Shown here: piece by piece, positions 4,303-10,428 of the stretch | How positions within the stretch are numbered: position 1 is the stretch's first letter | Layout: each line of letters begins with the position of its first letter | Source: Roseobacter sp. HKCCD6576-2 | GTDB taxonomy: Bacteria > Pseudomonadota > Alphaproteobacteria > Rhodobacterales > Rhodobacteraceae | Assembly (NCBI RefSeq): GCF_013179285.1 | Contig: NZ_WVNW01000003.1 | Span: 1-64,000, forward strand | Direction: 5' to 3' | Length of the DNA: 64,000 nt | The notes under the pieces: model-generated | The model's database searches: none | Told to the model about the DNA's origin: nothing | What the model saw: the letters and a program-made list of their open reading frames with translations, nothing else | Translations under genes and position numbers: made by a program

Positions 4303-4429
4303 GCAGACTGGTCAGGCGGTTTTTCGCCCGTTAGGCTAAGCCCAGAGTTCGATTTCCGACGCTGTATTATTTGATCACGCATTCAAAATGGGCCGCGGGT
4401 GTCCGGCGCCGCGGTGGACGGGGGACATC

Positions 4430-6085
4430 ATGGGCGCACCGATTACAGACGTTACCATTGTGGGCGGCGGCACGGCGGGGTGGCTGACCGCGACCTTGTT
4501 GCAAAGCATTCTGACGCGGCCAGGGCGGGCCAGCAAAGACGTCAAAATCACCCTGATTGAATCGCCGAACGTGCCGACCGTCGGCGTGGGTGAGGCCACC
4601 GTGCCCGGCATGCCGCGCACGCTCAGAAATGCCGGAATCCCAGAGCAGGAGTTTTTCAAGACCTGCAATGCGTCCTTCAAACTCGGCGTGCTGTTTCGCA
4701 ATTGGAATGTCGATAAAGACGGCCAGCAGATTGATTATGTGAACCCGTTCAACCCGGTGCCCTCGGTCGAAGGTATCGACGCCGGGTATTTTATGCTGCG
4801 TCACGGGGCCGGGGCGCTGGATTTCGTGCAGACTTATTCCGCTGCTGTCGATTTGGCCCGCGCGTTCAAAGGGCCGCGCGCGCTTGGGGCTAAAGAGTAT
4901 GATCGGCGGATCGGCTTCGCCTATCATCTGGATGCCGGCAAGTTCGCCCATATGTTGCGCGATATCTGCGTGGAACGGGGTGTCACCCATATCCTCGAAG
5001 ATGTGGTCGATGTGGAGCAGGATGAGCGGGGCTATATCGCGGCGGTGAACCTAGAGGAAAGCGGCCGCCATCCGGTGCAGTTGGTAATTGATTGCACCGG
5101 GTTCCGAGGGGTGATTATCAACCAGGTTTTGAAGGAACCCTTTGTTTCTTATTCAAAATACTTGGCCAACGACAAAGCGCTCGCGGTGCAGATCCCGCAT
5201 TCCGACCCCGCCAAACTGCCTTCGGTCACCCAATCGACGGCGCTTGGCGCTGGATGGGTCTGGCGCGTGCCGCTCTATCATCGGATCGGCACCGGTTACG
5301 TGTTTTCCAGCGCGCATCGAACGGATGAGCAGGCAATGGATGAATTCCTGGCCCATCTGGGGGATGAGGCCAAGGGGGCAGAACCGCGCGTCATCCCGAT
5401 GCGGGTTGGGCGGACGCGGAATGCCTGGGTCAAGAACTGCGTTGCGGTCGGTCTGTCGGGCGGCTTTATCGAGCCGCTGGAATCCACCGCGATCCACATG
5501 ATTGATACCGCCGTGCGCTGGCTGGCAACGTATTTCCCGGATCAGGATTTCCCCGAGCCGCTCCGGGCCCGCTACAACAAGCTGTCCAATGCGCTTTATG
5601 ACGAGGTGCGTGACTTCATCTGCCTGCATTACGCGCTTGGGAACCGGACCGATGACCCTTATTGGATCGACGCGCGGAATATGGAGGTGCCGGATAGCCT
5701 CGCCGAGAATCTCGAACTATGGAAACACACATTGCCAGGGCCATATGACCTTGAATTCGCGTCCCTTTTCTCGCCGGGTGTGTATCAGACCGTGCTTCTT
5801 GGCAAACGGGTCTATGAGACCGGGTATGGCAGCCCGACAATGACCGCGACCCTGCCTCTGCGGCAGGAGGTCTGGGGCCGCCATCTGCAAAATGCGCGCG
5901 CCGCGATCAAGCAATCGGTGGAGGCCGCCGCTGATCACCGGATGCTGCTCACCGAACTCAGGGGGGAGGCGACCCCCGCGCCGTTCCTGCCGCTCGCACA
6001 AGCAACCGTTGGGATGCCCGGTGCGGCTGCCCCCAAAGCTGCGGCCCTCGCGGTCCCCGAAAAGGAAGATGCCAGCCTCCTTTGA
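4430..6085 (+). CDS. Flavin-dependent tryptophan halogenase family protein
   Basis: This 551-residue protein carries the hallmarks of flavin-dependent halogenases. These are the FAD-binding VGGGTAGW (11-18), GVGEATVP (52-59), and Lys84 in CNASFKLGVLF at the place of the catalytic Lys79 of PrnA. WVWRVP (276-281) matches the W-x-W-x-I-P signature, and GGFIEPLEST lies at about 344-353. Such enzymes use FADH2, O2 and halide to make a lysine-bound hypohalous species that halogenates an aromatic ring. The ATG at 4430 has a GGGGGA site 4 bases upstream; an in-frame ATG at 4388 lacks one. No flavin reductase or biosynthetic cluster is adjacent, so substrate and partner are unknown. Confidence 0.88.
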   Translation: MGAPITDVTIVGGGTAGWLTATLLQSILTRPGRASKDVKITLIESPNVPTVGVGEATVPGMPRTLRNAGIPEQEFFKTCNASFKLGVLFRNWNVDKDGQQIDYVNPFNPVPSVEGIDAGYFMLRHGAGALDFVQTYSAAVDLARAFKGPRALGAKEYDRRIGFAYHLDAGKFAHMLRDICVERGVTHILEDVVDVEQDERGYIAAVNLEESGRHPVQLVIDCTGFRGVIINQVLKEPFVSYSKYLANDKALAVQIPHSDPAKLPSVTQSTALGAGWVWRVPLYHRIGTGYVFSSAHRTDEQAMDEFLAHLGDEAKGAEPRVIPMRVGRTRNAWVKNCVAVGLSGGFIEPLESTAIHMIDTAVRWLATYFPDQDFPEPLRARYNKLSNALYDEVRDFICLHYALGNRTDDPYWIDARNMEVPDSLAENLELWKHTLPGPYDLEFASLFSPGVYQTVLLGKRVYETGYGSPTMTATLPLRQEVWGRHLQNARAAIKQSVEAAADHRMLLTELRGEATPAPFLPLAQATVGMPGAAAPKAAALAVPEKEDASLL

Positions 6086-6274
6086 TCACGCGAACCTGCG
6101 GTGGGGGCGGCCTGAACGGCCAACCCTGACGCCTCGCAACAGCGCTGTCGAAATCCAAGCCAAGCGATGATGCGGTATTGAATCGAGGCACGGTCGGCGT
6201 CTTTCGCGTGCTTGGCAGAGACGCACAAGCCTTGTAGGCTGTGCCGACCCAATCAGGATGGCCAAAGACCAGCC

Positions 6275-7492
6275 ATGACGAGCAGATCCATCGGCGCCCC
6301 GGCGCCCCGTTTTACCCAACCGTCGCGGCAGATCGTGTTGATGCTGATCATCTGCGGTCTTGTCGGCTTTGGCGGGGTGATTGTCTATCCGCGTGTCGAG
6401 CCGGTGTTCCTGGCCAATCCGTTCCTGAATGGAACCATCGCGATTGTCTTTGTGGTCGGCGTGCTGGCCTGTTTCTGGCAGGTGCTACAGCTCTTTTCCT
6501 CGGTCAGTTGGATTGAGGGCGTCGCAACGGATCGTGACGGTCATGATATGGAGCGGGCGCCGCGCTTGCTGGCGCCGTTGTCGGGTGTGTTCCGGGGCAG
6601 GGGCGCGCGGATGCAGCTTACGTCTTCGTCTTCGCGCTCGATCCTCGACTCCGTGGGCGCGCGGATGGAAGAAAGCCGCGATATCACCCGATACATTGCC
6701 AACCTGTTGATTTTCTTAGGCCTTCTGGGCACGTTTTTCGGCCTCGCTACAACCGTTCCGGCCGTGGTTGAGACGATCCGCAGCTTGCAGCCAACCGAGG
6801 GCGAGGAGGGGATCGCCGTTTTTGGCCGCTTGATGGATGGGCTGGAGGATCAGTTGGGCGGCATGGGCACGGCCTTTGCTTCCTCGCTACTGGGCCTCGC
6901 GGGGTCTTTGGTTGTGGGGCTGCTGGAGCTTTTCGCGGGCCATGGGCAGAACCGGTTTTACCGCGAGATGGAGGAATGGCTGTCGACCATCACACGCGTC
7001 GGGTTTTCCTCCTCGGATGGCGACGGCGGCGGTGTCGACCGTGGCGCAATCGCCACCGTGCTTGATCACATGGTCGACCAGATCGACACGCTGCAAAGCC
7101 TCTTCGCTCAATCCGAGAGCCGCCGGGCTGAGACCGAAACCCGTATGATGGAACTCTCGGCCTCGGTCTCCGCGCTGACCGACCGTCTTGGCCCGGGCCC
7201 GGTTGAGGCGACCGAACGGTTGGCGGCGGCGCAAGACCGGCTTTCGGAGGTGCTGGCCGCGACGCAAGGTGAGGCAGGGATCGATGCCGAAAGCCGGATG
7301 CGACTCCGCTCGATTGACGTGCAGCTTTTGAAGATTTTCGAAGAAATGGGGGCAGGTCGAAACGACGAAATCGACGCCCTGAGAGGGGATTTGCAAGCCC
7401 TCACCGAGGCGTTGAAGCACCTGACCCAAGCCGCCGCCGAGCCCGCCCCGAGCCCCCGTCAACCTGCGCGTGCGCCTCGCGGCGGGGAGTGA
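6275..7492 (+). CDS. MotA/TolQ/ExbB-type ion channel subunit
   Basis: This 405-residue membrane protein has four hydrophobic segments (about 20-39, 52-76, 140-161, 196-222). The last two carry the MotA/TolQ/ExbB signatures LLGTFFGLATTVP and GMGTAFASSLLGLAGSLVVG. A cytoplasmic helical tail of about 165 residues follows. Such subunits form a pentamer around two MotB/ExbD-type partners and convert ion flow into rotation or force. The partner gene follows after 6 bases. The ATG at 6275 removes a poorly supported 21-residue extension (start at 6212). The layout resembles uncharacterised alphaproteobacterial motor pairs; what it drives is unknown. Confidence 0.8.
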   Translation: MTSRSIGAPAPRFTQPSRQIVLMLIICGLVGFGGVIVYPRVEPVFLANPFLNGTIAIVFVVGVLACFWQVLQLFSSVSWIEGVATDRDGHDMERAPRLLAPLSGVFRGRGARMQLTSSSSRSILDSVGARMEESRDITRYIANLLIFLGLLGTFFGLATTVPAVVETIRSLQPTEGEEGIAVFGRLMDGLEDQLGGMGTAFASSLLGLAGSLVVGLLELFAGHGQNRFYREMEEWLSTITRVGFSSSDGDGGGVDRGAIATVLDHMVDQIDTLQSLFAQSESRRAETETRMMELSASVSALTDRLGPGPVEATERLAAAQDRLSEVLAATQGEAGIDAESRMRLRSIDVQLLKIFEEMGAGRNDEIDALRGDLQALTEALKHLTQAAAEPAPSPRQPARAPRGGE

Positions 7493-7498
7493 CCGGCC

Positions 7499-9457
7499 AT
7501 GGCCTTTCACCGACGGGCAGGTACACGGTTCACCGCCTCGATCTGGCCGGGATTTGTGGATGCGATCACCGCGCTCTTGATGGTGATGATCTTCCTGCTG
7601 ACGATTTTCATGGTGGTGCAATATGTGCTTCGCGAAGAGATCAGCACCCAGGATGATGAGCTGAACCAGCTGAATGCGCAGCTCAACCAGCTCGCCGATG
7701 CGCTTGGCCTGGCGCAGGGTGCGAACGCGCGGTTGGAGGATCGGGTGGCGACCCTTGGCGCAAATCTGGCTGATGCGCAGGCTGAGGCCGAGTTGCAGGC
7801 GGCTCTGATCGCCTCTTTGAGTGCCGAGGGGGAGGCTCAGGCTGCGCGGCTCGCCAGCTTCGAAGAGCAGGTCGCGTCGCTTCTCGCGGCCAACACCGAA
7901 CTGACCGCAGATCGCGATGCGGCCCGCGCCGAGATCACTGAGCGGATCAGTCAGGCCGAGGCGTTGCAACTTGCGCTCGCGACGGCCCGGTCCGAAGTGG
8001 ATGCAGCGGCTGAAGCGGCGCGCTTGGCTGCAGCCGAACGCGAGGCGTTGGAAGCGCTGATTGCGGATTTGCAGAGTGATGCGGCAAGCACCGAGGCCAC
8101 TTTGGCTCAGACGCTAGCGGCCTTGCAGGTGGCGGAGGCGGACAGCGCCGCGCTCAATGCCGAGATTGCCGAATTGCAAGATGATCTGAGCGCTGAGGAG
8201 GCGGCGCGTTTGGCCGAGGTCGCGGCGGCGGAAGCGTTACGCGCCCGGCTGGCGGAGACCGAGACCGCCTTGAGTGCCGAGGAAACAGTGCGTTTGGCCG
8301 AAGCGGCCGCGGCCGAAGCGTTGCGCGCACGGCTCGAAAACGCGGATGCGGAGCTGACCGCCATGGCGCTTGCCTTGGAAGAACAGCGGCGCGCGGCGGA
8401 AGAGACGCTCACCCTTTTGGCCGCCGCCAATGCCGCCGAAGACGATCTCGCGGCACGGCTGGCCGCCGCCCTGGCCGACGGTGCCAGTGAGGCCGAGACG
8501 GCGGCGGCTCTTGAGGCCGCCTTGGCCGAGGCCGAAGCCCGCGCCGCTGCATTGCAGAGCGACGGGCAAGGTCAGGCCGAACGGCTTTCGGCGCTTGAAA
8601 CCGCGCTTGCCGAAGCATTGGCGGCGCAACGTTTGGCCGAAGCCGAACTCGACAACAATCTAACCGAAGCGGAGATCCGTGCGGCGCTCCTGGCGCAGGC
8701 CAATCTCGAATTGCAAGAGGCCGAGGCGCTGTCCGCAGAGAGCCAGCGTCAGGTCGCGGCGCTGAACGAGCAGGTGGCGGCGCTCAGGGCACAATTGGGC
8801 GGTCTGCAAACACTGCTTGATGCGTCGGCAGCGCGCGATGCGGAGGCCGAGGTTCAGATTGAAACGCTTGGGGCGCAGTTGAACACCGCCTTGGCGCAAC
8901 TGGCATCGGAGCAGAGCGCCCGTGCAACTTTGGAGGCGGCGGAGGCGGCACGGTTGGCCGAAGAAGCGGCCCGGCTTGCGAGCGAAGCCCAGGAGTTGGA
9001 ACGCTACCGCTCGGAGTTTTTCGGGCGACTGCGGGCCTTGTTGGAGGGGCGCGAGGGGGTTCGGATCGACGGGGACCGGTTCGTTTTTTCCTCCGAGGTG
9101 CTGTTTGAATCCGCATCCGCCGAATTGGCGCCCGAGGGCCGGGCACAGATTGCCAATGTCGCCGCGCTGCTCGCAGAGATCGCGGATGAGATCCCCGACA
9201 GCATCGATTGGATCATCCGAGTCGATGGGCATACCGACAACATTCCGCTCTCCGGCGGCGGGCGCTATGCCAATAACTGGGAGTTGAGCCAGGCGCGGGC
9301 GCTGTCGGTGGTGCTGTTCATGTCGGAAGATTTGGGCATTCCGCCCCGCCGGTTGGCGGCCACCGGGTTCGGCGAATACCGACCGATCAACCCGGAAAAC
9401 TCGTCTGAAGCGCGGGCGCAGAACCGTCGGATCGAGTTGAAACTGACCGAGCGTTAA
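7499..9457 (+). CDS. MotB-like protein: one TM helix, long coiled coil, C-terminal OmpA domain
   Basis: This 652-residue protein has a short cytoplasmic N-terminus and one membrane helix (about 18-42). Asp21 in PGFVDAITALLMV sits where MotB has its proton-binding Asp. An Ala/Glu/Leu-rich coiled coil spans about 50-505. The peptidoglycan-binding OmpA domain (about 515-652) has VDGHTDN, NWELSQARA and QNRRIEL. Residues 231-258 and 259-286 are tandem near-identical 28-residue copies, exactly four heptads each. With the channel gene just upstream it forms a predicted ion-driven motor anchored to the cell wall. The coil is far longer than in MotB or ExbD. Confidence 0.82.
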   Translation: MAFHRRAGTRFTASIWPGFVDAITALLMVMIFLLTIFMVVQYVLREEISTQDDELNQLNAQLNQLADALGLAQGANARLEDRVATLGANLADAQAEAELQAALIASLSAEGEAQAARLASFEEQVASLLAANTELTADRDAARAEITERISQAEALQLALATARSEVDAAAEAARLAAAEREALEALIADLQSDAASTEATLAQTLAALQVAEADSAALNAEIAELQDDLSAEEAARLAEVAAAEALRARLAETETALSAEETVRLAEAAAAEALRARLENADAELTAMALALEEQRRAAEETLTLLAAANAAEDDLAARLAAALADGASEAETAAALEAALAEAEARAAALQSDGQGQAERLSALETALAEALAAQRLAEAELDNNLTEAEIRAALLAQANLELQEAEALSAESQRQVAALNEQVAALRAQLGGLQTLLDASAARDAEAEVQIETLGAQLNTALAQLASEQSARATLEAAEAARLAEEAARLASEAQELERYRSEFFGRLRALLEGREGVRIDGDRFVFSSEVLFESASAELAPEGRAQIANVAALLAEIADEIPDSIDWIIRVDGHTDNIPLSGGGRYANNWELSQARALSVVLFMSEDLGIPPRRLAATGFGEYRPINPENSSEARAQNRRIELKLTER

Positions 9458-10428
9458 TTGAGCGTCACTTGGGTTTCGATCCGGTCGATGGTTTCGCCAC
9501 CTCGGGTGAGCGTGATTTCTCCGCTATAGAGGCCCGTCGGCCAGCCACCCGCCGGTGCACGGCGACCAGAGGCCCGGAAAAGCTGCGCTTGGGTCCGTTC
9601 CAAGGTCACGGTCTGGGAGTGGAAGAGGCTGCCATCAGGGGCCCTGATCCAGAGCGCAACCTCGTCGCCCGCTCGTCCACCGAACAGACTGCCCCAGATG
9701 ACCAGGGCGGGCGCGGCCCGTGCGGTCAGCGTTGCTGCATCCGCCGTGCCGGCCTTGATCGCGTCGAATTCAGGAATGGTGTCCGAGAACCCGGCGGAGA
9801 GAAACCCGCCCATTTGCAGGGGGATCGGGTCGGCCCAGAGCGCATCGTGACCGATGCCGCACTGGGCTGTCTCCGATGGATCGAACGGGTCCACCACCGT
9901 GCCATTATGGCGGAGGGTCATATGAACATGCGGAAACTCGGTGTTGCCGGAGAGGCCGATCAAACCAAGCGGCGTGCCGGCTTCAACGGCATCGCCCGTT
10001 GCGACCAAGACGCTGCCCATGCGCAGGTGGCAGTACTGCGTTTCCCAGCCATCCTCGTGGGTGATCGCAACGCCATTGCCGCAATCCTGGCCCACGGGCA
10101 TGCCAGCTTGGCCTGTGTCCGGCACACCACCCCGGATGCCGCGCACCACGCCAGGGGCGGCGGCGGTGACCATGACGCCCGCCGCCATCGCCTCCAGGTC
10201 AGGCAGGCGGATATCGGTGCCTTGGTGAGTGTCATAGCTGAGCGGGCCGCAGGTAAAATCCCGCGCCCCAGGCCCCGGATCCCGGTCGACAAATTGTTGC
10301 AGGAAACAGGTCTCGCCAAGGGTGCAGTCGACCGGAAAGGCCAAGTCCGGTGCGTCTGCCCAAGCGTTGGATGCAAAAACGGCGGCCCCGGTGAGGACCG
10401 CCGCTTTGAAGATGTTCCGTCGTATCAT
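9454..10428 (-). CDS. Exported M23 family metallopeptidase (LytM domain)
   Basis: This 324-residue protein begins with a Sec signal peptide (cleavage after ASNAWA, about residue 24). It then has an M23 domain with zinc ligands in THQGTDIRLPD (His and Asp) and HVHMTLRHNG (H-x-H). The family hydrolyses peptide cross-links in peptidoglycan in the periplasm. A C-terminal extension of about 120 residues contains no motif I recognise. The start overlaps the clpA stop by 4 bases, so it is the second gene of a clpA operon. Its TAA stop shares the palindromic TTAA with the stop of the convergent OmpA-domain gene. Confidence 0.85.
   Translation of the reverse strand: MIRRNIFKAAVLTGAAVFASNAWADAPDLAFPVDCTLGETCFLQQFVDRDPGPGARDFTCGPLSYDTHQGTDIRLPDLEAMAAGVMVTAAAPGVVRGIRGGVPDTGQAGMPVGQDCGNGVAITHEDGWETQYCHLRMGSVLVATGDAVEAGTPLGLIGLSGNTEFPHVHMTLRHNGTVVDPFDPSETAQCGIGHDALWADPIPLQMGGFLSAGFSDTIPEFDAIKAGTADAATLTARAAPALVIWGSLFGGRAGDEVALWIRAPDGSLFHSQTVTLERTQAQLFRASGRRAPAGGWPTGLYSGEITLTRGGETIDRIETQVTLN

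Follow-up and report, generated by a model that had tools for sequence, protein, structure and literature searches.

Ion-driven motors of the 5:2 type form a small class, and only few of their jobs are known. The described systems closest to the gene pair treated here are MotAB, TolQR, ExbBD and ZorAB, of which the flagellar channel protein MotA has four membrane helices. In the work analysed here, we studied the first 64,000 nucleotides of contig NZ_WVNW01000003.1 from Roseobacter sp. HKCCD6576-2 (assembly GCF_013179285.1, forward strand), hereafter the window, which encodes two adjacent proteins, A and B, at positions 6275–9457. According to passages of one report, ZorAB assembles as 5:2 complexes, in which the cytoplasmic tail of ZorA is very long and the wall domain of ZorB begins at residue 115 or 165 (PMC11890865). 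Section 14 of a 2025 survey states that an OmpA domain is lacking in non-flagellar B subunits (PMC12505986). Despite this statement, the present B carries an OmpA domain, and the pair is spread class-wide and kept in some genomes of about 1 Mb or smaller. With a probability of roughly 0.55, we propose that the two proteins make up a 5:2-class ion motor with a housekeeping role and an anchor in the peptidoglycan, distinct from flagellar MotAB, TolQR, ExbBD and ZorAB.

The B family is already annotated at NCBI as NF006542, under a name that carries no function and that is silent on A as its partner, on phasing by heptads and on the gene upstream. The libraries searched assign no function to the pair, and a literature search, mostly at the level of titles and abstract openings, found none that describes it. 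New here are a roughly tenfold range of coil lengths in B with mostly kept heptad phase and one unlocked internal segment, an upstream gene X that occurs outside the family and is missing in the window, and the frequent position of the locus 11–44 kb from tolQ. Because tether length varies mostly in heptad steps, the job of the pair becomes testable. Throughout, the family is Rhodobacteraceae and the class Alphaproteobacteria; "inside the family" refers to loci L045–L064, L095–L174 and extra loci, "outside" to L175–L214.

The channel-like subunit and its putatively wall-binding partner

A and B are adjacent open frames with 6 bases between them, at the place that a previous sequence-only reading had given for the pair. 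Subunit A (6275..7492, + strand, 405 residues) is predicted to be a four-helix channel protein of the MotA/TolQ/ExbB/ZorA type, as judged from its open frame, its hydrophobic stretches and an AlphaFold2 (AF2) model. We took the ATG at 6275 as start; a TTG at 6212 is likewise open. Hydrophobic stretches lie at residues 20–38, 55–73, 137–159 (two overlapping windows merged) and 199–217, and the AF2 model, built from 39 sequences, has helices at 17–47, 49–84, 117–170 and 179–245 (mean predicted local distance difference test score, pLDDT, 79.8; predicted template modelling score, pTM, 0.56). Among solved folds TolQ, ExbB and ZorA ranked top (Z scores of about 10–12), followed by MotA (Z 8–9.8). 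All of the top 24 rows were TolQ, ExbB, ZorA or MotA (Z 9.7–11.8), a Z range that chance helical bundles reach as well, and Foldseek gave an expectation value (E) below 0.001 for no solved fold. In the third membrane helix, the channel-type motif GLLGT (residues 149–153, 6719..6733, +) is invariant in the class-wide alignment A5 of 40 rows. The Pfam model PF01618 (MotA_ExbB) matches 27 of these rows at E ≤ 0.01 (best 2.7e-5) and is hence borderline for the A family. Toward the C terminus, a tail motif at about residues 337–372 (7283..7390, +) is conserved in the 39-row alignment A3, where D337, E339, R341, R343, L344, R345, S346, D348 and E356 are invariant. A related tail ends most of the 40 A proteins from outside the family, with L198, L209 and L214 among the few that lack it. 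From the four-helix topology, the tail is probably cytoplasmic.

Subunit B (7499..9457, +, 652 residues) comprises a membrane helix, a coiled coil and an OmpA domain of the peptidoglycan-binding type. It is a clear member of NF006542 (PRK09039.1-1, "peptidoglycan -binding protein"), with 788.3 bits against a cut-off of 388. Its single hydrophobic stretch covers residues 22–40, and the MotB-like aspartate that the sequence-only reading had put in the membrane helix stands exactly at position 21 (codon 7559..7561, +); from motif conservation, we presume that it binds the ion. The motif W-x-x-x-x-D was scored in 133 of 134 B proteins, and the exception, from L054, has it in the stop-to-stop frame. 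The OmpA domain, also anticipated from sequence, spans residues 535–643 (9101..9427, +; PF00691, 61.5 bits versus a cut-off of 27.2, E 1e-16). Its motifs GHTD and LSxxRA are present in 131 and 129 of the 134 proteins, respectively, which points to conserved residues of the wall-binding type. The AF2 model of B (pLDDT 71.2, pTM 0.34) has helices at 20–255, 263–385 and 390–515.

Pairing was assessed in 141 loci, 20 chosen by B, 120 by A and one being the window; a few genomes are present twice, and B is cut by a contig end in about seven loci. In 140 loci a B-type N terminus follows in the same direction, no more than 120 bases from the A end, and the remaining locus ends there. Inside the family, NF006542 was found in 100/100 genomes at E ≤ 0.001, a level at which weak matches may be other OmpA proteins, and in 93/100 over the cut-off. 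For the class, at most six candidates per genome were scored in 289 genomes (E ≤ 1e-5), so that some A may be missed; A matched in 187, mostly with one copy each, although the weakest matches (e.g. 2e-13) are possibly non-orthologous. A phylum-level draw of 299 genomes gave 76 matches to the A profile, 59 within the class and 17 outside. Five of the latter are strong (E < 1e-98; G445, G505, G539, G520, G642), and among the remaining 12, the six tested are ZorA by PADLOC. Strong A together with B relatives outside the class were seen at L262–L265 (G520, G642, G445, G539), possibly transferred. All nine A-bearing genomes of up to about 1.0 Mb have B too. In these, A and B are adjacent in G380, G286 and G167 and apart in G202, G307, G231, G332 and G352; A lies at a contig end in G254, where adjacency is undecided. 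At L266 (5111–7636, +), a short protein with a B-like N terminus precedes A, in reversed order.

Length and heptad phase of the coiled coil

The coiled coil of B spans residues 42–503 (7622..9007, +). It contains no proline, and its hydrophobicity has one dominant period, of 3.50 residues (power 35.4, maximum of 500 shuffles 11.1), so that the long coil expected by the sequence-only reading stands. In 135 B proteins, we counted 4 prolines in 61,659 coil residues versus 1,024 in 20,162 C-terminal residues. As a straight helix, the window coil would measure 68.6 nm. The width of a normal periplasm is several times shorter, and the coil thus cannot be a straight strut across it, as had also been noted from the sequence. 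Coil length varies about tenfold, with straight lengths of 17–195 nm overall, 17–66 nm (median 36) outside and 41–195 nm (median 72) inside the family. In the window coil, a search for tandem repeats gave weak 9-base repeats only. The longest B, at L215 (1906–8997, +), has 2,363 residues, some of them undetermined, and was excluded from the length figures; its coil contains a 339-base (113-residue) tandem repeat that corresponds to 16 heptads plus 1 residue and hence is no exact multiple.

Inside the family, pairwise coil gaps were multiples of seven in 4 of 5 cases at 85–99.9% identity and in 40 of 53 at 75–85%. At lower identity the counts were 505 of 936 (68–75%) and 6,083 of 11,678 (60–68%), with 1/7 expected; counted pairwise, one shared indel enters many times. 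As an aligner may favour heptads, we measured the Asp-to-wall span free of alignment, between the Asp in the membrane helix and the YRSEFF motif, which addresses heptad phasing as an alignment artefact. Outside the family, 36 of 40 spans were measurable (136–462 residues); modulo 7, one class holds 24 of them and a second, 3 or 4 away, holds 8. Chi-square was 89.6 for modulus 7 (6 degrees of freedom) and 14.3 for modulus 6 (5 degrees of freedom), and moduli 5 and 8–11 were near chance. Inside the family (99 of 104 measurable, 293–1334 residues), the largest classes modulo 7 hold 34 and 26 spans, with a chi-square of 57.9 for modulus 7 and at most 12 at the other moduli tested. Since the rows are related, these chi-square values are descriptive. 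The span of the A tail served as a control and gave a chi-square of 15.9 at modulus 7, lower than at moduli 8 to 11; this control is weak because of its narrow range (91–125) and 28 of 141 rows dropped.

Four conserved islands, I1 to I4, could be mapped in the coils of 65 of 99 family B proteins. The distance from Asp to I1 holds its class modulo 7 in 58 of 65, I1–I2 (72–485 residues) in 64 of 65 and I4 to the coil end in 65 of 65, and I3–I4 is constant at 36 residues. The I2–I3 segment (52–460 residues) is not phase-locked, with a best class of 24 of 65. From this it follows that the coil has two phase-locked segments with a joint between them. The Asp-to-wall distance, which mostly keeps its heptad phase over a roughly tenfold range of coil lengths, marks this as a true coiled coil, phased over most of its length. 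The sequence-only reading had also considered that the coil folds back. For such a hairpin we found no support, as the two main variable segments, I1–I2 and I2–I3, do not co-vary in length (rho 0.13, p 0.29). Of the segment pairs tested, the sole one to co-vary was I2–I3 with I4 to the end (rho 0.52, p 8e-6), perhaps because the proteins are related.

A proposed motor among rival explanations

Compared with MotAB, B shares the membrane-helix Asp and the OmpA domain, and A shares the four membrane helices; one difference is that, in a model of low confidence, the B helix extends beyond the membrane and a separate plug helix is missing. Taken by itself, this MotB-like order of Asp helix and then OmpA domain would suit a variant of the flagellar stator, a reading that is already contradicted and can hardly hold. 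FliG was found in 170 of the 289 class genomes. Both A and FliG are present in 114, A only in 73, FliG only in 56 and neither in 46 (Fisher p 0.32; some of the genomes are incomplete), the list of FliG genomes contains none of the nine small A-bearing ones, and the own genome has FliG plus five further MotA_ExbB matches besides the pair. A stator is rejected by this co-occurrence, which shows independence from flagella. The structural scores of A are highest for TolQR and ExbBD (Z about 10–12). In difference to TolQR, the alignment of A with TolQ begins at residue 37, so A has an extra N-terminal helix, and in difference to both systems B carries the OmpA domain. The TolQ model TIGR02796 matches 282 of 289 class genomes at E ≤ 0.001 (250 over cut-off) and is not among the NCBIfam families listed for A at E ≤ 1. 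That close homologs might turn out to be plain Tol-Pal or stator subunits had been named as one outcome that would overturn the sequence-only reading. Tested by sequence, it did not occur: at E up to 1, A has no TolQ, ExbB or MotA family in NCBIfam, the own genome (G000) contains a separate TolQ gene (E 3.8e-78), and FliG is without a match in 73 of the 187 genomes that carry A. In ZorAB, too, a channel protein that ends in a tail is combined with a B subunit that has a membrane-helix Asp and a peptidoglycan-binding domain; here, the A tail is of only about 160 residues and the long coil is in B. ZorA proteins are the nearest named relatives of A, with weak NCBIfam matches in up to 23 of 40 A rows and E 3.4e-10 for PADLOC ZorA1. 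In a tree of 42 sequences, A (support 89) and ZorA (support 100) are joined at 81, which is only suggestive because three MotA_ExbB rows of the own genome are long branches. We nevertheless consider an anti-phage system related to Zorya quite improbable. The NCBIfam ZorA models give A 16.8 bits at a cut-off of 500, the pair is mostly present once per genome and within a shared gene neighbourhood that recurs, genomes of up to about 1 Mb retain it, and no zorC, zorD or zorE was recognised among the neighbours, which were not scanned with PADLOC. A further MotA-like protein of about 333 residues (group f171, L259–L261) stands apart from both A and ZorA in the tree.

Two other explanations leave the pair in the envelope. 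In one, which we regard as unlikely, A would be a vestigial channel that merely holds the B dimer, and B would passively tether the inner membrane to the wall, with the long coil as the working part, for example as a spacer or scaffold for wall enzymes. The most striking features are indeed the length of the coil and its conserved islands, no link from the pair to a driven partner turned up, and X, which is OmpA-like too, occurs without detected A in 47 of 289 genomes. A passive holder, however, does not need the Asp and GLLGT, which are among the most conserved residues. Somewhat less probable still is a part in the Tol-Pal pathway, as an auxiliary division-site motor acting on Pal, wall enzymes or the outer membrane. 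Among 108 listed genomes with both A and tolQ, 58 have them on one contig, a requirement that favours near pairs in broken assemblies, and in 52 of these tolQ lies within 50 kb (10.7–44 kb) of A, divergently in 46. Moreover, in each of six small genomes (G202, G231, G254, G307, G332, G352) the OmpA domain is matched just twice, by a short protein and by B, and four of them (G202, G254, G307, G332) have just two MotA/ExbB matches, namely A and one also found by the TolQ model. Yet the pair lies outside the tol operon, adjoining clpA in 16 of 20 family loci; X can keep its place where A and B are absent, so that the neighbourhood is not motor-specific; and of eight single-contig genomes in the tolQ list, five have the genes within 50 kb and three have them 0.85–2 Mb apart.

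The proposal of a housekeeping 5:2-class motor has to face several results that weigh against it. The sequence-only reading had seen a MotA/TolQ/ExbB core in A. GLLGT and the predicted fold speak for this core, which we assign on these grounds and on a Pfam match that for the window protein stays below threshold (PF01618, 16.8 bits, cut-off 22.9, E 0.006). In Pfam and NCBIfam, A is above cut-off in no channel family, and a profile search of the PDB with the 40 A5 rows returned helical and coiled-coil proteins only, and up to E 1 no chain of MotA, TolQ, ExbB or ZorA was listed. The pair is dispensable, since 102 of 289 class genomes have no A match among at most six candidates each, and the complete family genome G023 has no B over cut-off (best 6.7e-14) and no A among six candidates. 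Closeness of A and tolQ may be inherited gene order. In the coil, besides the unlocked I2–I3 segment, the AF2 model of B breaks at 256–262 and 386–389, with pLDDT below 50 at both. The latter break falls in the unlocked segment; the former conflicts with the phase lock.

In the motor that we favour, five A would surround two B, ion flow past Asp21 would turn A against B, and the wall would hold B via its OmpA domains. The A tails might then pass motion to a cytoplasmic partner, or the twisted B coil might shorten and pull on the wall. As coil length is nearly free and phase mostly kept, although kept phase alone is what any coiled coil should show, the coil is more likely a compliant tether that can twist, placed within the periplasm or along it, than a rigid axle or ruler. 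The task is likely envelope upkeep close to that of Tol-Pal. Passages of a review place the highest torque that 5:2 motors reach at about 40 pN nm, discuss the uncoiling torque of coiled coils and speculate that coiled coils serving as anchors impose a limit on torque (PMC9389320). These points make winding of the coil by the motor plausible. Doubtful, and offered as speculation, is the more specific idea of a torsion spring. Proton flow would turn the A ring and wind the phase-kept B coil, stored twist and shortening would pull on peptidoglycan, and the stiffness of the spring would follow from coil length, which the family without X would adjust in whole heptads to as much as about 195 nm (more in one unfinished case). 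If true, a winding envelope motor would work alongside Tol-Pal in Alphaproteobacteria. The natural series of tether lengths (17–195 nm straight, mostly in heptad steps) offers a way to test if the torque of a motor is limited or stored by the coiled coil that anchors it.

Gene X and the surrounding gene order

The sequence-only reading had found no partner encoded next to the pair. This holds in the window; outside the family, 36 of 40 loci have a gene, X, for a secreted OmpA-like protein immediately upstream of A and in the same orientation. By eye, the N termini of the X proteins inspected resemble signal peptides, and the middle part contains 23% proline and 20% alanine (19 proteins). The C terminus is an OmpA-like domain, which exceeded the Pfam cut-off in all 10 proteins tested and in which the GHTD motif is absent (22 aligned rows). 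No X match was found in the stretches examined of 101 family loci, nor in the own genome at E ≤ 1e-6, and the matches in 47 of 61 family genomes were all weak (best 4.4e-11), at the level to be expected from other OmpA proteins. Class-wide, 179 of 289 genomes have an X match at E ≤ 1e-10, a level at which some may be other OmpA proteins. X and A are associated (p 5e-5), with both in 132 genomes, X only in 47 and A only in 55, and these one-sided cases rule out X as an obligate partner. At the 20 X-only places inspected out of 47, diverged A and B were found in one and none in the rest, where several stretches end near X. X is hence a frequent but separable neighbour of the pair. At L317, L318, L321–L326, L328, L329, L331 and L335, X is present, several times by a suhB-like gene, with no A or B seen beside it. 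The family without X is the family with the longest coils, which is an observation and not a test.

Outside the family, a recurring gene order is tkt, gap, pgk, fba, thiE, efp, suhB, X, A, B, in which the names from tkt to suhB are those we presume from sequence features. Upstream of A in the window, a tryptophan-halogenase-type flavoprotein is encoded at 4388–6085 (+; PF04820, 437 bits), with no match in the stretches of 20 other family loci. On the other side, an M23 peptidase gene (9454–10428, − strand; PF01551, 60 bits) is convergent with B and overlaps its last four bases. An M23 peptidase also lies next to the pair on the opposite strand in 11 of 20 other family loci, and as a partner it is only a lead.

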